A stretch of DNA of 64,000 bases from Granulicella mallensis (lineage in GTDB: Bacteria; Acidobacteriota; Terriglobia; Terriglobales; Acidobacteriaceae). The stretch spans positions 62,001-126,000 of the forward strand of contig NZ_JACHIO010000017.1 in the NCBI RefSeq assembly GCF_014203225.1, written 5' to 3'. Positions 2,788-47,146 of the stretch are shown piece by piece. The notes under the pieces are model-generated. The model did no database searches, was not told the origin of the DNA, and saw only the letters and a list, made by a program, of their open reading frames with translations. Both the position numbers and the translations under genes were made by a program. Position 1 is the stretch's first letter, and each line of letters begins with the position of its first letter.

Positions 2788-5700
2788 TTAGAACTTAAGG
2801 CGAGCGATGAGAAGCAGCATGCGCGGATCCTGTGCGCCCGTAACCTGGCCGAAGTTGGCGCTGGTAATTGTCGTACCCAGGCCGGAGAACTGCGGATGGT
2901 TGAAGGCGTTGTGAGCGTCGACGCGGAAGCTCAGACCGGCGTGCTTCCAGAGTGGAACCTCACGCATGAGACTGAGGTCCCACACATTCTGGCCCGGCCC
3001 ATAAAGCGCGGCGCGTGGCGCATTGCCCAACGTGTCCGCAGGAGTAATCGCGAAGGCCTTGGTGTTGAACCACTCCTGCACCGTCCGCGAACCGCGTGAC
3101 AGATTGGGGTTGCCCACCTGCGTTACGTACTGAGCACCAGAGAAGGTACCAAGCTCGTTGGTCTGGGAGATGAAGTAGGGATAGCCCTTCTGGAACTGGG
3201 CCACCGTGCTGATCTTCCAGTGCCCGATCGCCTGGGAGACGACCGGCATGTTCGCGAGGAACTTGCCGCCCGAACCAATCGGCAGCGCGTAGACCGCGGA
3301 GAGAGAGAAACGTTGCGGAACGTTCGTCATAGCAGTTCCCCACTGGGCGTGGAGGTTGTAGACGTTCTGCACCGGAGCGGCATCTGCGCGGGCCGGTGCA
3401 TCGACATCGTCCGTTGCATGCGCCCAGGTATAGGCCGCGCGAACCGAGATGCCGTTGCTCCAGCGGTGGCTCAACGTCGCCAGGAGAGCGGCATACTTTG
3501 ACGCACCTCCATTGGTCAGTGCGGTGACGGTAAGGAACTGGGGGAAGGGCCGGAGGCTCTGGGCATTCGATACGCCGAAGCAGCAGCCAGCGGGAGGATT
3601 GATCTGGTTGATGGGCAGCTCGATCGGCTGATGCACACCGTGGTTGCCCTCGTAGTCGAGCTCCGCGATCCAGTCATGACCGAGGTCCTGCTGTACGCCG
3701 AACTGCCACTCCTGCAGATACGGAAGCACAGCGTGCTGCGGCAGTTCCGTGGGGCTGAAGGAAGGCTTGGTGAGGCTGGTCGGGATGAGCGGCTCGCCGT
3801 CCGGGCCTACGTTGGGACCGTATGCCGGGACGCCCTGCGACAACTCGAAGGCCGGAGTAACGCCAGGATCGGAGCTCTGGAAGCTGGCACTGACAGTAGA
3901 AGCGGAGGTGAGCCCCGCAGTACCGAAGCCGATGCTCGGGAGCTCGTAGATTCCATAGCCGCCACGAACCACGATGTTATGCGCGGCATGGTAGTTGAAG
4001 CCGACGCGCGGCAGGATGCCGGTGTAAATATTCGGGATCAGGCTGTGGGGCGCTCCGTTGTTGCCGGCGAATTCAATCCCGCCCGGCTTCTGCGTTGCGG
4101 GGTCGATGATGTTCGGATTGAAGGTGTACATATTGTTGTGCTCTTCAGAGAACGGTCCATCGAACTCGTAACGCAGACCGAGGTTGACCGTGAGTTTCGT
4201 CGAGACCCTGTAGTCGTCCAGGACATAGCCCGCAAAGTAGTTCAGGTTTTCGTGAAAGATCGTATTGGTGGTGCTGATCGACGCGCTTGCGGGAATGCCC
4301 AGTTCGAGATCGGGAAGACCCAGTCCGGACTGACCGCCCGCGGTGGTAAAGGTCCCCGTGAAGCCATAGCTTCCGGAGAGAACGCCGGGGGTGTAGTAGC
4401 TGTAGGCGTAGCGCATGAACTCGCCACCAATAGAGAGGCTGTGACGGCCCATCTGCAGGACCATGGCGTCGTTCAGGATGTAGTGGCCGTCCCTCGTCCT
4501 GGCAAAGGAGCCTGCGCCGAAGCTGATGTACTGGCTGGTGGAGATGCTGGGGAACTGGGTGAGAGGAACACCCTGAAGACCGATGGCATTGGCATCCGCC
4601 GTCGCCGGGGTGCTGAAGTTCTCTTCCGAGACATAGCCGAAGCGAGCCTCGTTGGAGATGCGCGGCGAGAAGATATGGCTCCAGGAGACAGCGTAGTGGT
4701 CATCGACCCAACCGCCTAGCGCCGAGGTGTTGGCAGCGTTAGGAATATCGATGGTGGGCTGGTTCGTTGGGCCGTCGCGCGAGAACTTCGCCCAGATGTG
4801 GTCGTAGTCGGAGGCGTTGTAGTCGATGCGGTCAGCGTTATAGAGATAGCTGCTGACCGATACGGGATTGATGCAATAGTTGTAGGTCAGATAGCTGCAG
4901 TTCGGTTGTGGGAAAAACGAGCTGAGATTGAGACCTACCTGATCGAGCCGCGCCTTCGGAATGATGTTTCCCTTGAAGGGGGTACGGGTGATCTTGCCGT
5001 TGACGACGGTCGTGGTGTTGGGGTCGTAGATGGTGGGTGTCGGCTGATTTTGGGGTGAGATGCCGGAGAAGTCTCCGCCGAGCTCTGCCATGGTAGGCAC
5101 GTCGCTATTAAGCGGGCTAGTTGCGTGGGTGAGCGTGTCTTCCCAGTCGGTGAAGAAGTAGAGGCGATGCTTGCGGCCGTCGAGGATCTTTGGAATCCAG
5201 ACCGGGCCACCAATCGATCCTCCGAAGTAATTGAAGGACTGGGGCGGTGTGACGGTGCCGTGAGCGGTGAAGTAGCCCAGAGCAACGAGATCCTGCGAGC
5301 TGTAGGACTCGAAGGCGCTACCGTGAAATCTATCCGTGCCGGACCTGGTGGTGGTCAGGATAGCGCCGCCGCCGCTCTGGCCGTACTGGGCCGAGAACGG
5401 CGAGGTCAGAACCTGGAGTTCTTCCGTGGAGTCCGGCGTGGGGATGAGGCCGTAGGTGCCGTCGACTCCCATGTTGCTGGGCAGACCGTCGATGATGATG
5501 GGGTTCGTGACCGGTCTTCCGCCGCCAAGCGAGACGTTATTCACGTTCGAGTAGTCCTGGCTGGTGCTGGCGACGCCTGCGAAGGTCTTGGTCAGCAGGA
5601 ACTCGTTCGCACCCTTCGTGCTGGTCTCTTCGGGGAGATCGATCAGCTCCTGTGTGCTGAGTTCGCCGCCCACCTGGGGATTGGTGGCGTTGAGCGGGCT

Positions 5701-35069: not shown

Positions 35070-38000
35070 TTAGAACGAGATGCGCGCAGCAAACTGCAAC
35101 TGACGCATGCTCGAGTTCCCTTCCAGCGTGGTGATCACACCGCCATTCGAACAATCAATACAGCGCGCGTTCGAGGCGTTGGGAATATCCAGCTCCGGAT
35201 GGTTGAAGACGTTGAAGGCCTGGAACTGGAACTGGCCTTTGACGCGCTGGGTGATCGGAATGTCCTTGATGAGCGACATATCGGCGTAATAGTCACTCGG
35301 TCCCGTCAGGGAGTTGCGACCGACATTGCCGAAGGTTCCAAACGCAGGGCGAGTGAACGGGCCGGAGGAAGCGCCATTGGTCGTAAGCGCAGCCACAGGC
35401 GTGAAGAACTGCCTGGAGTGCGTCACAGGATCGAGCGCACCTACCGAACGCACGAGGTTTGCAGCGTCGCCGCTGGGACGGCAATCGCTGGTAACACCCG
35501 GGCCTCCGAAGTTATTGTCGATGTCCTCATCCGCACCGCACTCCTGATAGGTCGGAGTGAAGGGGCGTCCGCTCTCCCATGTCGTCGTGCCGCTGAGAGT
35601 CCATCCGCCGATCGCGTAATCGGTCAGGCGATTGACATGGCTGGCGAACATACGGTCGCGGCCGAACGGCAACGCGTAGACACCGCTCGCCACGAAGACG
35701 TTGGTGCGGTTGGTATCCCCGCGGCCGTGGCTGATCTGCGGGTAGTTCGCAAAGGCCTCGTCGTTGGCATAGTTCATCGCCTTCGACCAGGTGTAGTTGG
35801 CGTTGAACTGCAGTCCGTTGCTGAAGCGCTTGTCGAGCTTGGTCTGCAGCGAATTGTAGTTGGAGTTCGCCGTCGGAGCAGCCGAGGTCAGGCCGTTCGA
35901 GCAGCAGATGGTCGGAGCTCCCTGGTAGATCCCAGTGAACTTATTGAAGTAGGGACGGCGTGCCGACGTATCACCCAACTGTGCGGGAGAGGTAGGCAGC
36001 GTCGGCGCATTGAAGTCGAAGCCGTAGGTCTCACCAGGGTAGATACGCTCCGCGTGGTTGCCGACGTAGGCGATCTCCATCGTGAAGTTGCTGGAAAACT
36101 GCTGCTGCACCGTCACGTTCCACTGGTCGACCTCGGGAAGCTGGATGCGGTCGCCACGGAACTGCGGGCTGTAGGTGTTGGAGAACGGAATGATGCCGTT
36201 GGCCGGAATCGTGGGTGCGGGTGGCTTCGCGGGCAGTGTCGTCAACGTCGAGATGTACTGCCCGGTCGAGCTGGTTGAGCCTTCGTCTTCGTTGTTCAGC
36301 ACCGGCAGGTTGTGCGTCAGGACGGAACCGAAGAGCGTGCCGAAGAAGCCTACGTCGTCATACACCTGGGCGATGCCGCCACGGATGACCGTGTTGGGAT
36401 GCACCTGGTAGGCGAAGCCGAAGCGGCCTGCAAAGTTGGTGTAATCCATACGCTGGCCGCCATTGGTGCCGTTACCGCCAAAGCCTGCTACGCGCACGCC
36501 GCCCGCATTGATATCCGCAAAACCGCCATTGCCGGGGCTGTTAACCGTCTCAGGGAAGATGACGTCCCAATGCACGCCGTAGTTCACCTGCAGTTTGCTG
36601 TTAGGCCGCCAGGAGTCCTGGGCATAGAAAGATCCACGCTTCTGGCGGTTCGCAGCGTCCTGCGAGTAGACGTCGAAGCGCTGGAACTGGGCAACCTGGC
36701 CGAAGAGCAGCGAACCGAGAGCGGTACCGCTGGAGGCTGTGGGATCGGAAGGACCAGCCGCCGTCGACGCTGCTGCGAAGCTCAGTACGCCGGCGCGATC
36801 ATTGTCGCTAGCATTACGCAGGTTCAAGGCGTAGCGAATGTCTCCGCCAAACTTGATCGTGTGGTTGCCTAGAATCTTCGTCCAGTTGTTGGCGAGCTGG
36901 AAGACCTGTTCGCTCTCCAGTAGGGGGCAGTTGCAACCTTGATTGCCGAAGTTGCTGATCGTGTCGGCCATCGTGATGTTGGGAAGACCGCTGCTGTCAG
37001 GCGCAGAATTGAGGTTCGGAATGCCCGCGTTGGCAGCCGGGGTCTGGCCTGCCGTCAGTTTGTTCTCCGAGACGTGATAGCTGAGGAAGCCGGCACGCAG
37101 ATCCGTCAACAGTGTGGGGTGGATCGCCCAATCCATGCCGAGAGCCGCGCTCTGGTTCTGGACCTCGGAGGTACCGGTCGTTCCGGAGATGCCGAAGCCG
37201 ACACCGCCGCCCGGACCGAAGGCCGCACTGCCGAAGAGGCCGAAGAGCGCGTAGTCATACCGGCCAAAGAGGTGGATCTTGCTGTTCAGTTGATGGTCCA
37301 GACGAATGTCGGCCTGATCGGCATTGTCGTTGCCGTTGCCGGAGGCAGCAAAGTTATTGGTGATCGACGTACCGTTAGTGTTCGGGGCCGGCAACAGCTT
37401 CAACAGGTTCGCACCCTGCGGAGAGATGACCGAGACCGGGATCGCATTGCTCGCAAACAGCTGCCCTGGTCCGCCCGAGCCTGTCGGGTGGAAATAGATA
37501 GGCTGTGAGCCGAGGTACTGGCTCAGATCACAGGTGGCACCGGCGGTCTGCAGGACGCAGGAGTTACGGGCCGTCAGGGTCGGCACGGTGAGCAGCTGGC
37601 TGGCGCCGAGACGCTGCCGCGTGCCCTGATAGTCGAGGAAGAAGAAGGTGCGGTCCTTGACGATGGGGCCGCTGAGCGAGCCGCCGAACTGACCATAAAC
37701 CTGGCCCGGAATGAGCTGGCCGGTCACCGGGTCAGGCTCCGATTGCGTGAAGGGGTTGCGAGCCAACTGCGCTCCGCTGTGGCGATAGAAGAAGGCGTCG
37801 CCGTGGAGATCGTTGCCGCCGGACTTGGTCTGCGCGCTGACGATACCACCCACAGCGCCGCCGAACTCGGCATCGTAGTCGGCAGAGGTAACCTTCAACT
37901 CACCGACCGAATCCAGCGTCGGGTTGATCACGATGATGCCGTCGACCGGCTCACGATTGTCGGTGCCGTCGAGCAGCCATCCCTGGACGCCGTAGCTAGA

Positions 38001-38573
38001 GCCGTTCGTCGTCACCGAGGTAGTTCCCTGCGGGTTCTCCGGGCCACTGATATTAAAGGTGGAGTGCTGCACGCCCGGCGTAAGCAGGGTGAACTGCGTG
38101 AAGTTGCGGTCCAGGTTGGGCAGGTTCTGCACGGCGTGCTCGTCGATTACCTGCGAGACATCGGCGCGGTCCGTCTTCAGGGCGGGGGTATCGGAGGCCG
38201 AAACGGTAACCGTCTGGTCAGCCCCGGCGATTCCCAGTTGCACATCGACCAACTGCGAGACGTCAGCGTGGACCACTACGTCCTTCGACTCCGTTGATTG
38301 AAACGTCGGTGCGCTGATCTTGACGTCGTAGTTGTCAGGGACGAGATGGCCGACGTTCCAGCCTCCGCTCTCGTTGGTCTGGGTGGTTTGCACCGTTCCC
38401 TTTTGTTCGTCCGTGACCGTAACGGTGGCACCCTTGATGACTGCACCTGAGGTGTCTTTCACCGTTCCGTAAAGCGAGCCATAGACGGCCTGGCCGTAGG
38501 CACTGCTTCCCGCCAGCAACATACATGCAACGAGAAACAGCCCTGTGCGAGCTGGTTTCTTTTGATTCGGCAT
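35070..38573 (-). CDS. Oar-like TonB-dependent receptor, second copy
   Basis: ATG 38573 is chosen since AGGAG lies nine bases upstream; the protein has 1167 aa. A signal peptide (TGLFLVACMLLAGSSAYGQA) is followed by a carboxypeptidase regulatory-like domain (YGSLYGTVKDTSGAVIKGATVTVTDE). A plug with QVIDEHAVQNLPNLDRNFTQF and a long barrel ending LQFAARISF follow. It is the same architecture as the receptor at 2788-6168, but the two differ through most of the barrel. Uptake or surface binding of large glycans is inferred. It is divergent from the membrane-anchored regulator at 38800, a frequent pairing with Oar genes. Confidence 0.9.
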   Translation of the reverse strand: MPNQKKPARTGLFLVACMLLAGSSAYGQAVYGSLYGTVKDTSGAVIKGATVTVTDEQKGTVQTTQTNESGGWNVGHLVPDNYDVKISAPTFQSTESKDVVVHADVSQLVDVQLGIAGADQTVTVSASDTPALKTDRADVSQVIDEHAVQNLPNLDRNFTQFTLLTPGVQHSTFNISGPENPQGTTSVTTNGSSYGVQGWLLDGTDNREPVDGIIVINPTLDSVGELKVTSADYDAEFGGAVGGIVSAQTKSGGNDLHGDAFFYRHSGAQLARNPFTQSEPDPVTGQLIPGQVYGQFGGSLSGPIVKDRTFFFLDYQGTRQRLGASQLLTVPTLTARNSCVLQTAGATCDLSQYLGSQPIYFHPTGSGGPGQLFASNAIPVSVISPQGANLLKLLPAPNTNGTSITNNFAASGNGNDNADQADIRLDHQLNSKIHLFGRYDYALFGLFGSAAFGPGGGVGFGISGTTGTSEVQNQSAALGMDWAIHPTLLTDLRAGFLSYHVSENKLTAGQTPAANAGIPNLNSAPDSSGLPNITMADTISNFGNQGCNCPLLESEQVFQLANNWTKILGNHTIKFGGDIRYALNLRNASDNDRAGVLSFAAASTAAGPSDPTASSGTALGSLLFGQVAQFQRFDVYSQDAANRQKRGSFYAQDSWRPNSKLQVNYGVHWDVIFPETVNSPGNGGFADINAGGVRVAGFGGNGTNGGQRMDYTNFAGRFGFAYQVHPNTVIRGGIAQVYDDVGFFGTLFGSVLTHNLPVLNNEDEGSTSSTGQYISTLTTLPAKPPAPTIPANGIIPFSNTYSPQFRGDRIQLPEVDQWNVTVQQQFSSNFTMEIAYVGNHAERIYPGETYGFDFNAPTLPTSPAQLGDTSARRPYFNKFTGIYQGAPTICCSNGLTSAAPTANSNYNSLQTKLDKRFSNGLQFNANYTWSKAMNYANDEAFANYPQISHGRGDTNRTNVFVASGVYALPFGRDRMFASHVNRLTDYAIGGWTLSGTTTWESGRPFTPTYQECGADEDIDNNFGGPGVTSDCRPSGDAANLVRSVGALDPVTHSRQFFTPVAALTTNGASSGPFTRPAFGTFGNVGRNSLTGPSDYYADMSLIKDIPITQRVKGQFQFQAFNVFNHPELDIPNASNARCIDCSNGGVITTLEGNSSMRQLQFAARISF

Positions 38574-38799
38574 CCTGGTTCTCCTAAAGCCGTCGGGGAG
38601 ACTCGCCAAATGCTCATCCTTAGAAGGGACGTTCCAATTGGCTAAAGACCTAACGACAGTAGTTGTAGGATTGCTTCCCCTAATTAGTCGTTGCTACAGA
38701 CCACCCCGAAAACGACGTTCGGCATCGTATTCACGGTGTGTGGTTACTATTTGACGGGTAAAATCAGATGGAACCAACCGTTGTATTCTTGCGGGGCCT

Positions 38800-40062
38800 A
38801 TGGCTGTAAGCAACTCATTAGACGAAAGATATTCCGAAAGACCCGAGTGGGCACTGGCTCAACGGATTGTTGCAAGCCCCGAACTCAAATCCTCTCGCAA
38901 GCTGTGTCGATTTTTCCTCTACGTAGTCGATTGCTCCCTGCGTGGAACACCGGAAGAAGCCACAGAGCAGCAGATCGGCATCCATGTCTTCGATCGCCCT
39001 CCTGGCTATAACTCCAGCGACGACAGCATCGTCCGGTCACAAGCGCGCCTACTAAGAATCAAGCTGACTGCTTACTTCGCGAGAGTGGGAGATCAAGAAG
39101 ACCTTACCCTCGAAATTCCGAGGGGTCACTACCTGCCCGTCTTCCGTTCAGCCGCGGCTGTGCCGGAGCCCCAGCCGCTTGAAGAGGAGAGACAGCCGGA
39201 GGAGTCCCTATCCTCCGACTTCAGGAGCCTCAACGAAGTAGCCGCGCCAATCGTCTCTCCTCCGCGATCTCGCAACTGGCCGCTGACCTGGACGGCGATA
39301 GCCTGCGCCTGCATGGCCCTGGGTATCCTCATGGGATTCGCCTGGGCACGCAACCCGCATCTGGAACACAACTCCAGCACCAATCTTTTTTGGAAGCCTT
39401 TCCTGCAGGGAGCGCCGCCCCTGGTCATCTACAGCAATCCCCTCTTCACGGGTACGCCCTATACCGGCATGCGACTGGTGACCTCCGGCGTGCAGAGATC
39501 GCTGAACGATGTCGACGATGACACCTACACGGGAACAGGTGAGGCCTCGGCGATTCGCGACCTGACGCATGTCTTCGATGCCCACCATGCGGAGTTCATT
39601 CTGAAGCGCAGCCGCCTGGTCACGTGGGACGAGGCGAAGTCTCACAACCTTATCTTTATCGGGGCCGCGAGCCAGAACAGTGCGTTACAGGATCTGAAGA
39701 CGAACCTCGACTTTGCCATCGACCTCGATAGCGATCACCAGGGGTTCATCGCCAATCGCCATCCGCTGCAGGGCGAGCCCGCAAGCTTCAAGCCTTCGTC
39801 TGCGAATGAGGAGTATGCCATCATCGCCTCCGTTCCCGGACTCGAACCCGGAACGCGGATCGCCATCTTCACAGGGCTGACGACCAACGGCACGCAGGCT
39901 GCCGTAGAGTTCGTCTGCAATCCGGGCAACGCCCAGCAGTTGGCGAAGATCGTCCAGAGACCGGGCGATGCCCTGGTTCCCTTTGAGGCTGTTCTGCATA
40001 TCAAGATGAGTGGCGGCGTGCCGCTGCAGGCAGATGTGGTGGCGATTCATCCCCACGGCTGA
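38800..40062 (+). CDS. Membrane-anchored regulator-like protein (acidobacterial N-terminal module, TM segment, extracytoplasmic domain)
   Basis: The 420-aa protein begins with a module (about 17-116) that I recognise from many acidobacterial regulators and TPR proteins: RIVASPELKSSRKLCRFFLYVV, IGIHVFDRPPGYNSSDDSIVRSQARLLRIKL, IPRGHYLPVFR. A Pro/Glu-rich linker and one membrane helix (160-182, WPLTWTAIACACMALGILMGFAW) follow. The last 235 residues face the periplasm and have no family I can name. The design suggests signal transfer across the membrane. It lies back to back with the Oar receptor, with a 226-base shared promoter region. GCGGGG lies before the ATG. Confidence 0.75.
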   Translation: MAVSNSLDERYSERPEWALAQRIVASPELKSSRKLCRFFLYVVDCSLRGTPEEATEQQIGIHVFDRPPGYNSSDDSIVRSQARLLRIKLTAYFARVGDQEDLTLEIPRGHYLPVFRSAAAVPEPQPLEEERQPEESLSSDFRSLNEVAAPIVSPPRSRNWPLTWTAIACACMALGILMGFAWARNPHLEHNSSTNLFWKPFLQGAPPLVIYSNPLFTGTPYTGMRLVTSGVQRSLNDVDDDTYTGTGEASAIRDLTHVFDAHHAEFILKRSRLVTWDEAKSHNLIFIGAASQNSALQDLKTNLDFAIDLDSDHQGFIANRHPLQGEPASFKPSSANEEYAIIASVPGLEPGTRIAIFTGLTTNGTQAAVEFVCNPGNAQQLAKIVQRPGDALVPFEAVLHIKMSGGVPLQADVVAIHPHG

Positions 40063-40083
40063 TTGCCCCTGTGAACTTGTTTT

Positions 40084-40318
40084 TGCTTTTCTGGTTGTCA
40101 TTCCGAGCGCAGCAAGCGAACCTGCTTCCTCCCGTTTAGCTCGTTCTGGTACAGCTAACCCTCTTGCCTTTACTCACTATGCGTGTAATCCAAACGAAGA
40201 ACGGGAGACAGCAGGTTCGCTCGCTACGCTCGGAATGACAACCAGAAAAACAACAGCAAAAGCAACGGCAACAACAGAAGCAGATTCCCTGCGGGAATGA
40301 CAACCAGAAAAGCAAAAA
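40084..40318. repeat. Long inverted repeat, family B copy 3
   Basis: GCTTTTCTGGTTGTCATTCC (about 40085) and GGAATGACAACCAGAAAAAC (about 40232) are the arms. The tail to 40318 repeats CAGATTCCCTGCGGGAATGA. It separates the convergent ends of the regulator and the pyruvate oxidase genes. Confidence 0.8.
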
Positions 40319-40332
40319 CTCCCCACAACTCC

Positions 40333-42057
40333 TCAGCGAATGAGATTGGTCTTGGCGAGATCGATTACCTCGTCCCCACGTCCGCTAAAGACCGCACGCA
40401 CCATGTAGAGGCTGAAGCCAAGAGCCTGCTCGGCCGTGATCGATGGAGGCATGGAGAGTTCCTGCCGGTTCACGATCACCTCGATCAGGGCGGGTCCATC
40501 GTGCTCGAAGGCACGTGAAACAGCAGAGCGCAGATCCTCTGGCTTTTCGACGCGCACACCGAAGATTCCGGCGGACTCCGCTAACTGTGCGAAGTTCGGA
40601 TTGACGAGGTCTGTGCCATAGTCGACCAGCCCCGCGGCCTTCATCTCCAACTCGACAAAGCCTAGGCTGCTGTTATTGAAGACCACGATCTTTACCGGAG
40701 CCTTGAGCTGGCGGAGCGTCAACACCTCGCCCAGCAGCATCGCCAGACCGCCGTCGCCGGAGAGGCTGATCACCTGCCTGCCTGGATGAGAGGCCTGCAC
40801 TCCAATGGCTTGCGGCAAAGCGTTCGCCATGGATCCATGAATGAAAGAGCCCAGCAGACGGCGCCTGCCGTTCATGTGGAGATAACGCGCCGCCCAGATG
40901 GTCGGCGTTCCGACATCGCAGGTGAAGACAGCATCGTCCGCCGCCAGCTCATCGACAACTTTGGCGACGAACTGGGGATGTATCGGGGTACGGCCCGGCT
41001 CGCCTGTCGCCAGGTCGTCGAGCCCCTTGCGAGTCTGCTTGTAGTGGTCGAGACAGATGTCGAGATAGGAGCGGTCTTTCTTCTCCTGCAAGAGAGGAGT
41101 CAGCGCGTCCAGCGTATCCTTCACATTACCAATCAGGCCAAGATCGACCGGCGTACGGCGCCCAATCTGCTCGCCGCGCAGGTCGACCTGAAGGATCTTC
41201 GCCTTCTTCGGATAGAACTGCGGATACGGAAAGTCTGTGCCAAGCATCAGCAGCGCGTCGCAGTTCATCATCGCGTGATAGCCGGAGGAGAAGCCGAGCA
41301 GGCCGGTCATTCCCACATCGTAGGGATTGTCGTACTCGATGAACTCCTTGCCGCGCAGGGCATGCACGATGGGAGCCTTGAGCCTGGCCGCCAGAGCTAC
41401 CAGCTCGCCATGCGCGCCCTCGCAGCCGGCGCCGCCGAGAATCGTCACCTTCTGCGCTCCGTTGAGAAGGTCCGCCGCCTGGTGGAGTTCGTTGTCGGAG
41501 GGGCGAATGAGCGGAGCGGAGTCGTGAATGCCAAGAGCCAGCGTTGCGGCAGAACACTCGCGCGCCAGGACGTCTCCGGGGATCACAACAACGGCCACTC
41601 CTCGCTTGGCGATGGCCGTGCGCATCGCGATCCCCAGGACGCGCGGCATCTGGTCGGCCTGCGATACCATCTCGCAGTAGTAGCTGCAATCCTTGAACAG
41701 ATGTTCGGGGTGTGTCTCCTGGAAGTAGCCGCTGCCGATCTCCTGGCTCGGCACCTGGGCCGCAATCGCCAGTACGGGGACGCGGCTACGGTGGCAGTCG
41801 TAGAGCCCGTTGATGAGGTGCATGTTGCCGGGGCCGCAGCTTCCGGCACAGACAGCGAGCTTCCCGGTAACGTGGGCTTCCGCGCCGGCCGCGAAGGCCC
41901 CGGCCTCTTCATTCCGCACATGAAGCCATTCGATCGCCTTGTTCTGCCGGATGGTATTCGTGAGCCCATTCAAGGAATCGCCCACCACGCCGTAGACACG
42001 AGTTACGCCCGCTTGTACCAACGTATCTACAAAGACTTCCGCCACTTTCCTTGCCAT
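40333..42057 (-). CDS. poxB: Pyruvate oxidase / pyruvate:quinone oxidoreductase (PoxB type, ThDP enzyme)
   Basis: The 574-aa ThDP enzyme aligns along its whole N-terminus with E. coli PoxB: GVVGDSLNGL, the catalytic Glu in VRNEEAGAFAAGAEA, AVCAGSCGPGNMHLINGLYDCHR, and GSGYFQETHPEHLF. The ThDP-binding GDGG...NN motif lies at about 428-456. PoxB decarboxylates pyruvate to acetate and CO2 and passes electrons to quinone at the membrane. The C-terminal membrane-binding peptide of E. coli PoxB is not obviously conserved (it ends DEVIDLAKTNLIR), so the electron acceptor is less certain. AAGGGG precedes the ATG. Confidence 0.88.
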   Translation of the reverse strand: MARKVAEVFVDTLVQAGVTRVYGVVGDSLNGLTNTIRQNKAIEWLHVRNEEAGAFAAGAEAHVTGKLAVCAGSCGPGNMHLINGLYDCHRSRVPVLAIAAQVPSQEIGSGYFQETHPEHLFKDCSYYCEMVSQADQMPRVLGIAMRTAIAKRGVAVVVIPGDVLARECSAATLALGIHDSAPLIRPSDNELHQAADLLNGAQKVTILGGAGCEGAHGELVALAARLKAPIVHALRGKEFIEYDNPYDVGMTGLLGFSSGYHAMMNCDALLMLGTDFPYPQFYPKKAKILQVDLRGEQIGRRTPVDLGLIGNVKDTLDALTPLLQEKKDRSYLDICLDHYKQTRKGLDDLATGEPGRTPIHPQFVAKVVDELAADDAVFTCDVGTPTIWAARYLHMNGRRRLLGSFIHGSMANALPQAIGVQASHPGRQVISLSGDGGLAMLLGEVLTLRQLKAPVKIVVFNNSSLGFVELEMKAAGLVDYGTDLVNPNFAQLAESAGIFGVRVEKPEDLRSAVSRAFEHDGPALIEVIVNRQELSMPPSITAEQALGFSLYMVRAVFSGRGDEVIDLAKTNLIR

Positions 42058-42623: not shown

Positions 42624-44477
42624 ATGCCCTATGTAGCTCCCGCATCCACGTTCCACGCTCCCGATAGCAACGCCACCCCTGGCAACGACACCTACAACCG
42701 CTTACTGTTGGTCGTCGCAGGCCTGGGTGGACTGCTGTATGGAGTCGATGTCGGCATTATTGCCGGGGCTCTACCCTATCTCCAGGCTACCTCTCACCTG
42801 AACCCCAGTCAGCTTTCCATTATTGTCGCGGCCGTACTCCTGGGAACCGTGATCTCAACCATGTTTGCAGGCCTGCTTGCCGACTGGATGGGACGCAAGC
42901 CGCTCATGATCCTGAGCGGGGTCACCTTTGTGGTCAGCATTCCGATGATTGCGCTCTCGCATGGATACGGGCCGTTGTTCTTCGGACGGCTTCTGCAGGG
43001 CGTCAGCGGAGGATTCATCGGCATCGTCATTCCGCTCTATCTGGCAGAGTGTCTTACCGCCTCGAAGCGTGGCAAAGGAACCGGAGCCTTTCAGTGGCTC
43101 CTCACCTTCGGCTTCGTTCTGGCAGCCCTGATCAGCACCTACTACAGCTATCGCGTAGCTGCCGTGGCCAACGCCGCCGTAGCCAACACGGCAGTGGCCG
43201 AGGCGGCCAAAGCGGCGGCTGTTCTTGCATTCAAGAACCAGGCGTGGCGTCGTATCTTCTGGACCTGTCTGCCTCCGGGCATCCTCTTTGTGATTGGCAG
43301 CTTCTTCGTTGGCGAGTCCCCGCGCTGGCTCTTCAAACGCGGCAAGAAAGACCGTGCGCTCGCATCGCTGCTTCGTTCGCGCAGCCCTGAACAAGCAAAG
43401 ATTGAACTGCAAGAGATGGAACAGGCTGCGCTTGCCGTCAAGGTACAGCCTTCCACCGGGAAAGAGATCAAGGACTCCCTTCTGCGCAGGAAATACCTGG
43501 TTCCCTTTGTTCTGACCTGCGTCATTCTTTTCTGCAACACGGCAACGGGAATCAATTCGATCATTGGATATAACGCCAGCATCCTGCTGCAGAGCGGTTT
43601 GTCCGACGTTCGCGCGCATTGGGGCTACGTCCTCTTCACCATCGTCAACTTCCTGATGACGATGGTCGGGATGACTCTGGTAGATCGCAAAGGGCGCAAG
43701 TTTCTTTTCATCCTCGGCACCTCCGGAATTATCGTCTCTCTGATCTGTGTCGGAGTGCTGTTCCTAAAGACGGAAAAGCTGAACGTGGATTGCCGCGATA
43801 CGGTTCAAGCCATGGTGGCTCCGAACCAGACCCTGACACTTCCGTTCAACGTGGCCGAAGCGAAAAAGCTTCTCTCTGCCAGCGGTTACCACGGCGACGG
43901 TGTTCAGAGCGAGCAAGCCTCAATGTCGGTGATCTACTCTTATGGCGATTTCACGGCAACCACAGAGTTCGTGCGCTCCGACGATACAGCTGCAGCGCCC
44001 ATTCAAATCACGCGTGAAAGCACCTTGCCCGATAACAAAGTGGAAGCCTTTTTCCAAAACCCCTTCGCCGATCTCGATACCGCTCGCACTGCGCCCTTGA
44101 AGATCAGCCGTGCCAATATCGGCAGCGTGCCCAATGCGGCACACGGCTGGTTAGTGGCCCTCTGTCTTTACGCCTTCATCGCCTTTTATGCGGTCGGTCC
44201 CGGCGTCTGCGTCTGGCTTGCACTATCGGAGTTAATGCCGACGCGCATTCGCTCCAATGGCATGAGCTTTGCCCTCGTGATCAACCAGATGGTTTCAACC
44301 ACGCTTGCAGGAATCTTCCTTCCTGTCGTCGGCAAGTACGGCTACTCCTCGATGTTCTTCCTGTTCACCGGATTTACGGTGGTCTATTTGCTGACCGTAA
44401 CCTTCTTCCTTCCGGAGACCAAAGGCAAGACGCTGGAAGAGATCGAGGCTTACTTCGAAGCGCCACGAAAAGCGTAA
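42624..44477 (+). CDS. Sugar-porter MFS transporter with large insertion
   Basis: The 617-aa protein has the sugar porter motifs: GVDVGIIAGALPYLQ, DWMGRKPLMIL, RLLQGVSGGFIGIVIPLYLAE, GESPRWLFKRGKK, DRKGRKFLFILG and PETKGKTLEEIE. Typical members have about 450-500 residues. Two additions explain the excess: an Ala/Val-rich stretch before the central loop (AAVANAAVANTAVAEAAKAAAV), and about 120 residues at roughly 383-504 between late membrane helices (NVDCRDTVQAM...NIGSVPNAAHGW) with no family I recognise. By topology this second insertion should be outside the cytoplasm. GGAGGTAG before the ATG is strong. It probably takes up a hexose by proton symport. Confidence 0.88.
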   Translation: MPYVAPASTFHAPDSNATPGNDTYNRLLLVVAGLGGLLYGVDVGIIAGALPYLQATSHLNPSQLSIIVAAVLLGTVISTMFAGLLADWMGRKPLMILSGVTFVVSIPMIALSHGYGPLFFGRLLQGVSGGFIGIVIPLYLAECLTASKRGKGTGAFQWLLTFGFVLAALISTYYSYRVAAVANAAVANTAVAEAAKAAAVLAFKNQAWRRIFWTCLPPGILFVIGSFFVGESPRWLFKRGKKDRALASLLRSRSPEQAKIELQEMEQAALAVKVQPSTGKEIKDSLLRRKYLVPFVLTCVILFCNTATGINSIIGYNASILLQSGLSDVRAHWGYVLFTIVNFLMTMVGMTLVDRKGRKFLFILGTSGIIVSLICVGVLFLKTEKLNVDCRDTVQAMVAPNQTLTLPFNVAEAKKLLSASGYHGDGVQSEQASMSVIYSYGDFTATTEFVRSDDTAAAPIQITRESTLPDNKVEAFFQNPFADLDTARTAPLKISRANIGSVPNAAHGWLVALCLYAFIAFYAVGPGVCVWLALSELMPTRIRSNGMSFALVINQMVSTTLAGIFLPVVGKYGYSSMFFLFTGFTVVYLLTVTFFLPETKGKTLEEIEAYFEAPRKA

Positions 44478-44848: not shown

Positions 44849-45649
44849 CTACACCAGGATGACTTCCACCCCAAGAGCCTTGATCGCTTCCGCCTGATCC
44901 TCGGAAAGGTTCGTATCGGTAATCACCGTGTGGATCGCGTCCGCCGGAACGATGAGAGACAGGCTTCGCCGTCCGAACTTCGTGGAGTCGCATACCATCA
45001 CCACCTTTTCGGCGGCGTGAACCATCGCCCGATTGATGCGGGCCTCCAGGACATTCGGAGTCGTCAGGCCTGCCTTGGCGTCGAAGCCATCCACGCCCAG
45101 AAACAGGATGTCGGCATGGATCTCGCGGAGCATGTCTTCGGCGATCGGCCCGGCAAGAGAGAACGAGCTCTTGCGCAAGGTTCCACCCGTCAGGATCACG
45201 TCGAAGTCCGTGCCGGCCAGTTCGGTCGCGATATTGACGGCGTTGGTAACCACGGTCAGGCTGCTGAACGCCGTGAGCGCGCGGGCGATGGCCGTGGTCG
45301 TCGTACCGGAGTCCAGAAGAACGCAATGCCCTTCCTCGACCAGCTTTACAGCGGCCTCGGCGATCCTTTGCTTTTCCTTGAGCTGGTGCTGCTCCTTGGC
45401 CTTGAGCGGAGGATCGGCCAGCACGCTGCTGCGCGGAAGGGCCCCGCCGTGGCTGCGCTGCAACAGTCCCTTCGATTCCAGATAGTCGAGGTCCTTGCGA
45501 ATCGTGATCCGCGAGATACCAAAGACATCCGAAAGCTCAGAGACGAGCACCCGGCCGTTGCGCTGGATGAGATCGAGCATCCGCTGCCGGCGTTCTCCGA
45601 TCAGAAGACCTTCCGTATTCGATGGAATGGGAGTTTTGGACTTTCGCAT
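44849..45649 (-). CDS. DeoR-family regulator (AgaR/GlpR-like)
   Basis: The 266-aa protein has an N-terminal helix-turn-helix (36-57, VSELSDVFGISRITIRKDLDYL) and a sensor domain with LLDSGTTTTAIARAL (111-125), VVTNAVNIATEL, LTGGTLRKSSFSLAGP and FLGVDGFD. These features are very close to the amino-sugar regulator AgaR and other DeoR proteins. It sits between the sugar porter (convergent) and the GlmS-like isomerase (divergent). Matching tandem ACGAAAT sites occur upstream of both. Repression of both genes until an amino-sugar or ketose phosphate binds is the likely role. Confidence 0.9.
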   Translation of the reverse strand: MRKSKTPIPSNTEGLLIGERRQRMLDLIQRNGRVLVSELSDVFGISRITIRKDLDYLESKGLLQRSHGGALPRSSVLADPPLKAKEQHQLKEKQRIAEAAVKLVEEGHCVLLDSGTTTTAIARALTAFSSLTVVTNAVNIATELAGTDFDVILTGGTLRKSSFSLAGPIAEDMLREIHADILFLGVDGFDAKAGLTTPNVLEARINRAMVHAAEKVVMVCDSTKFGRRSLSLIVPADAIHTVITDTNLSEDQAEAIKALGVEVILV

Positions 45650-45668
45650 GGGTTACCCATCATAACTT

Positions 45669-45784
45669 GTAGAGCAAACTTCCTGTTACTGAGAAGTTGA
45701 ATCGGGCGTGCAGTGCCGTTTTCTGGGGAAAAACGGCCATCAATATCGCAGTTTTGCTATACACCTACAGGAAATTTGCTATAG
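45669..45784. repeat. MITE-like element, family H copy 2
   Basis: GTAGAGCAAACTTCCTGT and ACAGGAAATTTGCTATAG are diverged terminal inverted repeats. Inside, GGGCGTGCAGTGCCGTTTTC and a TACACCTAC segment match copy 1 at 18058. The internal hairpin GCCGTTTTC-TGGG-GAAAAACGGC is kept although its bases differ from copy 1. Confidence 0.7.
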
Positions 45785-45953
45785 TCCGGAGGACACGAAA
45801 GCAAACCCTACGTCTTCTTCAAAGCGAAAGCCCTGTTTCTCGCTGGTAGTTCCTCCTTCCAGACAGGATTTGGGAACCGCAAAGCCCCCGCGAAACCTAT
45901 ATTTCCCTATACAGGCCTGCACATCCTCATTTATCATGAAATTAGACTGATAA

Positions 45954-45973
45954 ACGAAATAAAACGAAATATA
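45954..45973 (+). promoter_or_regulatory. Candidate DeoR operator upstream of the GlmS-like isomerase
   Basis: Two tandem units, ACGAAATAAA and ACGAAATATA, end 37 bases before the isomerase start. They match 42411-42430 except for one base. ACGAAA-type direct repeats are known operators of several DeoR-family regulators of sugar genes. Confidence 0.68.
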
Positions 45974-46009
45974 CTTTGTCAGCAAACGCGATCGTGAGGG
46001 ATTAAGACC

Positions 46010-47146
46010 ATGCCGGAAACACAGAGCCCCGCTCCTTATGCGCACTGGATGCTGCGCGAGATCCATGAACAGCCGGAGACCTTGAAGGCCACCCTGAACA
46101 GCTATGTGGAGGCGCAAGGCTTTCGTGCAGAGACCTGTGCCCCGCTGCGGATCTGGCTGAAGAAGGCCAGCGGAAAGATCGTGATTGCCGCGAGCGGTTC
46201 CAGCCGTCATGCCGGACTGGCTGCCGAGCTTTTCTTTGAAGACCTGAGCGGTATCCATGTCGATGTGGAGTACGCCAGCGAATACACCTACCGCAATGAA
46301 ACAGCGCTTGGGGATGCGGTAGTGATGGTGGTATCGCAGTCAGGCGAGACCGCGGACACGCTGGCCGCGCTGCGCAAGGCCAAGCTGGCGGGGCACGAGA
46401 CCCTGGCGATCACCAACGTTGCAAGCTCCACGATGGCGAAGGAGGCAACGGTCTCCTTCCCGACCGAGGCCGGGCGCGAACGGGCGATTCCAGCAACCAA
46501 AAGCTTCACCGCACAGTTGCTGAATCTTTATCTTCTGTCCTTACTCGCGGCGGAGTCGCGCGGAGTGCTCGATGCCGCCGAGATGGAGGTACGGCTCGCC
46601 GAACTGCGCGAGTTGCCGGCAAGCGTGAAGGCACAGTTGCCGGAGTGGGAGAGCTCCGTCCGGGCGATTGCGGAGCGGTACAAGACGGCCAAGAACTTCC
46701 TGTTCCTGGGCCGCGGTGTGCACTATCCAATAGCCCGCGAGGGCGCGCTGAAGCTGAAGGAATCGGCCTATCTGCATGCGGAAGGCTATCCCAGCGGCGA
46801 ACTGAAGCATGGGCCGAATGCGCTGGTGAGCGAAGGAACGCCGCTGGTGATGATTGCAACGGTAGACCGCAACGACTCGGAGTCGGTGCAGCGCTACGAG
46901 AAGATCGTGCAACTGATGCGCGACATGCGGGAGCAGGGCGCGAACATTCTGGCCATTGCCAATACAGGTGACGAAGTAGTGGCCGAACTGGCTACGAATG
47001 TGGTCTTTGTCGAGCCAGCACGCGAGGCTCTGCTTCCCATGCTGGAGGTGATCACCCTGCAACTGCTCGCTTACTTCATGGCGATCAATAACGGAATCGA
47101 CGTGGACCACCCGCGCAATCTGACGAAGGCCGTTCTCGCGGAATAA
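46010..47146 (+). CDS. GlmS-like SIS-domain sugar-phosphate isomerase/deaminase (no glutaminase domain)
   Basis: The 378-aa protein equals the isomerase half of GlmS. YAHWMLREIHEQPETL opens the first SIS domain (about 45-180, with VVSQSGETADTLAAL at 108-121); the second spans about 205-350. KESAYLHAEGYPSGELKHGPNAL and the C-terminal PRNLTKAVLAE match GlmS, including the region of its sugar-binding Lys. The N-terminal glutaminase is absent, so it should work on free ammonia or, more likely, deaminate glucosamine-6-phosphate or a fructosamine phosphate (NagB-II/AgaS/FrlB type). GTGAGGGA precedes the ATG. Confidence 0.87.
   Translation: MPETQSPAPYAHWMLREIHEQPETLKATLNSYVEAQGFRAETCAPLRIWLKKASGKIVIAASGSSRHAGLAAELFFEDLSGIHVDVEYASEYTYRNETALGDAVVMVVSQSGETADTLAALRKAKLAGHETLAITNVASSTMAKEATVSFPTEAGRERAIPATKSFTAQLLNLYLLSLLAAESRGVLDAAEMEVRLAELRELPASVKAQLPEWESSVRAIAERYKTAKNFLFLGRGVHYPIAREGALKLKESAYLHAEGYPSGELKHGPNALVSEGTPLVMIATVDRNDSESVQRYEKIVQLMRDMREQGANILAIANTGDEVVAELATNVVFVEPAREALLPMLEVITLQLLAYFMAINNGIDVDHPRNLTKAVLAE

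Follow-up and report, generated by a model that had tools for sequence, protein, structure and literature searches.

What decides which nutrient a soil bacterium imports? Acidobacteria are common in soils, and a locus of Granulicella mallensis bears on this question. It lies in a 64,000-nucleotide stretch of contig NZ_JACHIO010000017.1 (positions 62,001 to 126,000), which was analysed whole and is called the window below, with positions counted from its first letter. Here the gene of an Oar-type outer-membrane receptor (35070-38573, minus strand, ATG at 38573; 1167 amino acids) stands back to back with a plus-strand open reading frame (38800-40062; 420 amino acids) whose product belongs to an unnamed, undescribed family with many copies per soil acidobacterial genome. 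The portions of the literature covered by our search hold no description of how such Oar receptors are controlled. We propose, with fair confidence, that the 420-residue protein, hereafter the regulator, is a membrane-anchored, ToxR/CadC-like one-component sensor-regulator of a nutrient-uptake locus. It probably controls the receptor behind it, which would give the family a likely role, and may be one way in which Acidobacteria choose which nutrient to import.

An earlier note made from the letters of this DNA had described a three-part protein divergent from an Oar receptor, and both genes were found where it had placed them. Pfam recognizes the receptor by a CarboxypepD_reg domain (E 5e-19) and a PF25183 barrel (E 1.9e-194; scored at G000:C17:97094-99829, G000 being the window's own genome and C17 the contig that carries it). 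The regulator has no significant match in Pfam (its best is at chance level, E 0.1, and the PF00486 and BcsB models give none at E ≤ 1) or in NCBIfam (none at E ≤ 1), and sequence searches against solved structures returned nothing usable.

Pairing of the regulator family with Oar receptors

In 14 of 14 orthologous loci from public genomes, an Oar gene stands divergently beside the regulator, and the paired Oars are 26-82% identical to that of the window. We compared the same loci with the 58 six-frame open reading frames (ORFs) of at least 120 amino acids in 27-50 kb of the window; nine have a match, all of them in or antisense to the regulator or the receptor. Across orthologs, the conserved unit is the pair alone, with no other gene of window 27-50 kb.

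The arrangement recurs among paralogs. Stretches of six genomes (G000, G001, G006, G007, G010 and G014; G010 was sampled by 20 stretches, the others by chosen matches) hold 65 proteins with the regulator's N-terminal domain, and 54 of these also carry its C-terminal domain at E < 1e-3. None of the four from G014 does so, and the 54 members thus come from five genomes (G000, G001, G006, G007 and G010). Thirty-six of them are divergent from an Oar gene within 700 bp, at spacings of 113-582 bp, and four more lie directly upstream of one on the same strand; among the N-domain proteins without a significant C-terminal domain, 2 of 11 are divergent from an Oar. At the level of the class, 89 of 151 genomes have a match. 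The 29 best-match loci beyond the window, inspected with 1.5-kb flanks, comprise 23 with a divergent Oar, one that precedes a same-strand Oar, one convergent and four with none, a survey that favours close relatives because only 30 loci (one being the window) of the 89 matching genomes were used. That the three-part protein tends to adjoin receptors, as the earlier note had supposed, is borne out by both samples.

The own genome allows a comparison with other regulator classes. Besides fragments, about 20 full-length members of the family are encoded there, along with at least 65 Oar barrels; as 65 of 142 candidate places were scored, Oar counts are minimum values whichever class is considered. 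By a 2-kb criterion, a divergent Oar was found for 10 of 20 family members (three family fragments were left out), 2 of 22 Trans_reg_C genes, 0 of 30 sigma70_r2 genes and 2 of 17 LacI genes (Fisher p 3.5e-5 for the family versus sigma plus LacI). In any orientation, an Oar is nearby for 12 of 20 family members, 6 of 17 LacI genes and 2 of 30 sigma genes. The regulator-receptor pairing is confirmed as systematic and beyond chance.

The layout is also unlike that of sigma/anti-sigma pairs, as had been claimed. Compared with extracytoplasmic function (ECF) sigma/anti-sigma systems of the FecR-like kind, the window locus has no adjacent sigma gene (none of the 30 sigma70_r2 places is on contig C17, and none was found in the seven neighbouring ORFs scanned in 28-47 kb), its receptor has no STN signalling domain at E ≤ 1, and no sigma gene of the genome is divergent from an Oar.

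Such tight pairing across wide divergence could also arise if the regulator sensed the receptor itself, its C-terminal domain contacting the periplasmic CarboxypepD_reg domain of Oar in a form of TonB-dependent surface signalling without a sigma factor; Oar does bear an N-terminal accessory domain, presumably facing the periplasm. We consider this unlikely, in that the partners co-diverge weakly within a genome and receptors seem to be swappable. Regulator and receptor distances correlated in G000 (Mantel r 0.44, p 0.005) and not significantly in G010 (r 0.10, p 0.17); pooling 38 pairs gives r 0.63, a value that orthologs have probably raised. At the orthologous locus L040, the paired Oar is 26% identical to its window counterpart versus 46% for the regulator, a mismatch indicating that receptors can be swapped and making a receptor swap likely.

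In a sample of the phylum, 24 of 199 genomes match at E ≤ 1e-15, 17 of them from the own genus, family or class; of the remaining seven, G178 alone has a match that spans almost the full length. Matches on Rhizobiaceae plasmids span only about residues 19-237, inside annotated proteins of about 586 amino acids. Three matches have one TAG inside them (L076, G002:C1:1832253-1833506 and G010:C12:77237-78499) and are possibly decaying copies or alignments that run past the end. A second Oar barrel in the window (2818-5352, PF25183) has no regulator-family match beside it. In the own genome, LacI genes adjoin Oars more than sigma genes do, and may be a second class of regulator acting on other Oars. 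Two Trans_reg_C proteins there (G000:C31:51462 and G000:C8:77282), with open frames of more than 750 amino acids, are divergent from Oars, as if the classical CadC type filled the same role.

Predicted architecture of the regulator

The three-part layout of the earlier note is supported by an AF2 model of the full protein (alignment A1, 14 orthologs; pLDDT 69 overall). In this model helices and a wing (residues 15-117) are followed by a disordered linker, by a helix (160-184) and by an alpha/beta domain that extends to residue 420. When residues 11-122 were predicted alone (alignment A2, 15 sequences), they formed a winged helix with pLDDT 90.9, in line with the DNA-binding-like module that had been suspected; the domain is predicted to cover residues ~11-116 (38830-39147, plus strand). 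A long helix at 75-95 occupies the place of the recognition helix, and residues 102-117 form the two-stranded wing. Re-aligned to solved structures with VIA-align, the domain has its best match in the DNA-binding domain of the OmpR-type protein SaeR (Z 7.1 over 86 residues, 3.5 Å); the AdeR DNA-binding domain follows at Z 5.9, with ScpB (Z 6.1) and other winged helices interspersed.

Profile comparison points the same way. Using HHalign, we aligned the N-terminal modules of the family (64 of the 65, one short module being dropped) with the 22 Trans_reg_C domains of the own genome, and obtained a match of 65 columns with E 1.7e-4, a probability of 49% and a score of 26.5. None of 300 column shuffles reached this score, and the reversed profile gave 10 versus 26. 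Trans_reg_C is also the commonest weak Pfam match among the 54 family members (10 of 54, best E 0.001). By analogy, the domain appears to work like a PF00486 (Trans_reg_C) domain, though we do not file it there, and the model suggests that it binds DNA.

Hydropathy gives one hydrophobic stretch in the window protein, and the AF2 helix at residues ~160-184 (39277-39351, plus strand) provides a single transmembrane helix between the DNA-binding-like and sensor domains. Two arginines directly precede it, which is consistent with a periplasmic C-terminal domain, and the orientation of the protein in the membrane is probably of this kind.

The C-terminal alpha/beta sensor domain (39376-40059, plus strand; residues ~193-420), presumably periplasmic, had been called unfamiliar. 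Its unfamiliarity did not survive structural comparison, since VIA-align finds a recognizable fold of the BcsB, S-layer and GH67 kind. Regulator residues 195-420 match residues 533-723 of Escherichia coli BcsB, a periplasmic cellulose synthase subunit, with Z 12.9 over 165 residues at 3.2 Å; we take this part of BcsB to be its second carbohydrate-binding domain (CBD) and flavodoxin-like repeat. The likeness is one of fold: sequence identity is about 10%, the regulator does not match the BcsB Pfam model at E ≤ 1 and the best Foldseek E is only 1.7e-3. The regulator differs further in being fused to a winged helix. BcsB carries two CBD plus flavodoxin-like repeats (PMC11379886). At Z 8-11 the sensor domain further resembles N-terminal portions of enzymes from GH67, GH115 and GH84, and 125 of 135 residues of an archaeal S-layer anchoring domain (9fsa) align with it at Z 8.4. 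For the latter the fold is joined by a weak sequence match: S_layer_C (PF05124) is hit in 8 of the 54 members, with a best E of 5.6e-4 that is the lowest among the matches listed. Unlike that domain, the C-terminal domain of the regulator shares its polypeptide with a winged helix and a membrane helix.

Conserved DNA between the paired genes

If the winged helix binds DNA, the 226 bp between the two starts (38574-38799), where both promoters presumably lie, are the obvious place to look. We found no sigma70-type promoter or terminator in 38540-38830 and no Rfam family in 38000-40400. The best-conserved intergenic block among the closest orthologs is GTATTCACGGTG-N10-TTTGACGGGTGAAA, which in the window falls at 38723-38763 of the plus strand, from CATCGTATTCACGGTG to TTTGACGGGTAAAA. 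The ortholog alignment makes it a candidate operator-like element, with the core TTCACGGTG at 38730-38738.

The motif TT[CGT]AC[CG]GTG, on either strand, occurs upstream of 19 of 21 orthologs and is missing in L039 and L189; L187 repeats L032 and, judged by eye, L076 is a near-repeat of the window, which makes 17 of 19 the fairer count. The motif is found in none of 13 upstream regions of other subfamilies and in 25 of 618 length-matched control windows drawn from L031-L044. The spacing of two TTNAC half-sites is 11 bp in L037, L040, L041, L044 and L188, and 19-21 bp in the window together with its closest relatives. A motif of its own, TGAYACNGTTA, marks a second subfamily, made up of 11 of the 13 loci L191-L203. 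Ten of these 11 have it, eight of the 11 contain a repeat of the GTTAC type (with an 11-bp spacing in six of the eight), and neither feature occurs in the 618 control windows. In 282 tiles of L191-L203, searched on both strands, the second motif occurs in none and the first in two. OmpR-type proteins bind direct repeats (PMC7496328). Judging from these alignments, the conserved intergenic DNA looks operator-like and seems to differ by subfamily.

This bears on a different view of the N-terminal domain, in which it is a docking module for a partner protein, in the style of an anti-sigma factor or scaffold, with the receptor controlled by release of a sigma factor. Foldseek gave no significant DNA-binding match for the domain, an NCBIfam 'antisigma' model is weakly matched in 5 of the 54 members (best E 0.0049), and two of the 30 sigma genes do have an Oar in the vicinity, one lying 382 bp behind an Oar of the same strand and one 3.1 kb ahead of a different Oar. 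We nevertheless regard docking as quite improbable: VIA-align and HHalign both indicate OmpR-type winged helices, the operator-like DNA is positioned and varies by subfamily, and the divergent place beside Oar is taken by none of the sigma70_r2 genes.

A proposed nutrient-responsive unit and its neighbours

The one-component sensor-regulator that we propose builds on four computed findings: how the domains fold, the Oar pairing, the conservation of intergenic DNA and the hydrolase genes nearby. The periplasmic alpha/beta domain would respond to a nutrient, to a breakdown product or to the receptor's state, and the signal would pass through the one membrane helix to the cytoplasmic winged helix. 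This would bind the conserved element at about 38723-38763 and adjust transcription of the divergent Oar receptor (and enzyme) as well as of the regulator's own gene. The ligand, probably a glycan fragment here, would be expected to raise receptor expression.

The enzyme enters the scheme through the gene 3' of the receptor. One homologous gene stands there in 9 of the 11 orthologs where the position is visible, and the four of these nine that were scanned by Pfam all match MGH1-like glycoside hydrolase models. Beyond the window, 28 of 37 paralog pairs have a linked gene after the receptor (called from greedy ORFs rather than by a trained gene finder; for L144 the second gene was counted). Twelve of the 28 encode glycoside hydrolases (GH1, GH3, GH13, GH28, two GH31, three GH92, two GH106 and one MGH1/GH63-like), seven encode phosphoester hydrolases and nine encode other or unknown products. 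With a weak control, in which at least 3 of 40 nearby genes are glycoside hydrolases, and with several of the 28 loci apparently orthologous, the 12 of 28 is suggestive and enrichment is not proven. A hydrolase gene 3' of the receptor in many relatives leads us to see the unit as sensor-regulator, receptor and enzyme, and there would be one such unit per nutrient, in some 20 copies or more in large-genome members.

Polysaccharide-utilization loci of Bacteroidota are controlled by SusR, by hybrid two-component systems or by ECF sigma/anti-sigma pairs. The units described here resemble them in joining a regulator, a TonB-dependent receptor and, in many relatives, a hydrolase, with many loci per genome; they differ in the class of regulator and in the Oar-type receptor, and in the window itself no enzyme gene follows the receptor. 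The likeness to ToxR and CadC, which carry Trans_reg_C (PF00486) at the N-terminus, lies in the succession of domains (a winged helix, then a single membrane helix, then another domain), in genes that adjoin their presumed target and in repeats in the conserved upstream DNA, which are putative sites here. Differences from that group are an N-terminal domain below PF00486 recognition and modelled without the N-terminal beta-sheet, a C-terminal domain of BcsB/S-layer-like alpha/beta fold and some twenty paralogs in one genome.

Several observations weigh against control of the receptor by a DNA-binding regulator. The Z of 7.1 to SaeR is a middling score, and the best Foldseek E for the N-terminal domain alone is 1.1. 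The defining feature of the OmpR family is an N-terminal beta-sheet before three helices (PMC7496328); in the model, helices occupy its place and the only two strands are both in the wing. At the curated PF00486 cut-off the domain is not recognized (the window protein gives no match at E ≤ 1, the best of 54 relatives E 0.001), and it is because the sequence match and the beta-sheet both fail that we leave it outside that family. Both intergenic motifs were derived from the sequences in which they were counted, the second is missing in L194 and L202 (10 of 13 over L191-L203), and the conserved DNA may be, at least partly, core promoter. In 13 of the 54 members the nearest Oar is more than 700 bp away and one has none in its stretch, regulator and receptor distances agree only partly, and the 6 of 17 LacI genes near Oars deny the family a monopoly. 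Finally, the glycosidase gene of the orthologs is missing at the window locus; a 51% homolog lies on another contig.

Adjacency could also be a by-product, the protein controlling only itself or a neighbouring enzyme, or having a structural role in the envelope and moving along with receptor islands. In favour of this, 18 of the 54 members are outside the tight divergent position (four of these just upstream on the same strand), the start of the regulator gene is closer to the conserved DNA than that of the receptor gene is, and the divergent neighbour on a Granulicella plasmid is an alginate lyase. We hold it to be very unlikely: orthologs keep nothing else of window 27-50 kb, and the divergent layout with its shared intergenic region recurs at 113-582 bp in 36 members. 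On that plasmid, from Granulicella tundricola, a 24% relative is divergent from the annotated alginate lyase; next comes a protein of Oar size annotated as carboxypeptidase-regulatory-like. The lyase also counts towards the link with nutrients.

For the sensor-regulator that we favour, a broader version can be offered as a possibility rather than an expectation. Acidobacteriota may have a class-specific system for nutrient islands, with dozens of paralogous transmembrane winged-helix sensors bearing a BcsB/S-layer-like domain, each reading a different glycan, phosphate ester or loaded Oar and each with its own co-evolved operator. If a regulator-receptor-hydrolase unit recurs in this way, it would make it easier to predict the nutrient that a given receptor imports, and the pair supplies a defined candidate operator for direct test at the bench.

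The surroundings of the pair also touch on sugars: the window holds genes for a GH77 glucanotransferase, a sugar symporter-like protein and a sugar transporter (42624-44474). Beside the last, a DeoR-type regulator and a SIS-domain gene (44849-47143) probably belong to a separate sugar locus. Elsewhere in the family, the pairs at L110 and L145 are followed by a metallophosphatase gene and a Ca-dependent PI-PLC-type gene, which suggests uptake of inositol-phosphate or phospholipid products. Just 3' of the regulator, 40077-40319 contains a 60-nucleotide inverted repeat (88% complementary) and a perfect 26-nucleotide pair; the element matches at least 111 pieces of the genome (from the best 40 of 187 candidate places) and resembles a dispersed REP/MITE-type family.

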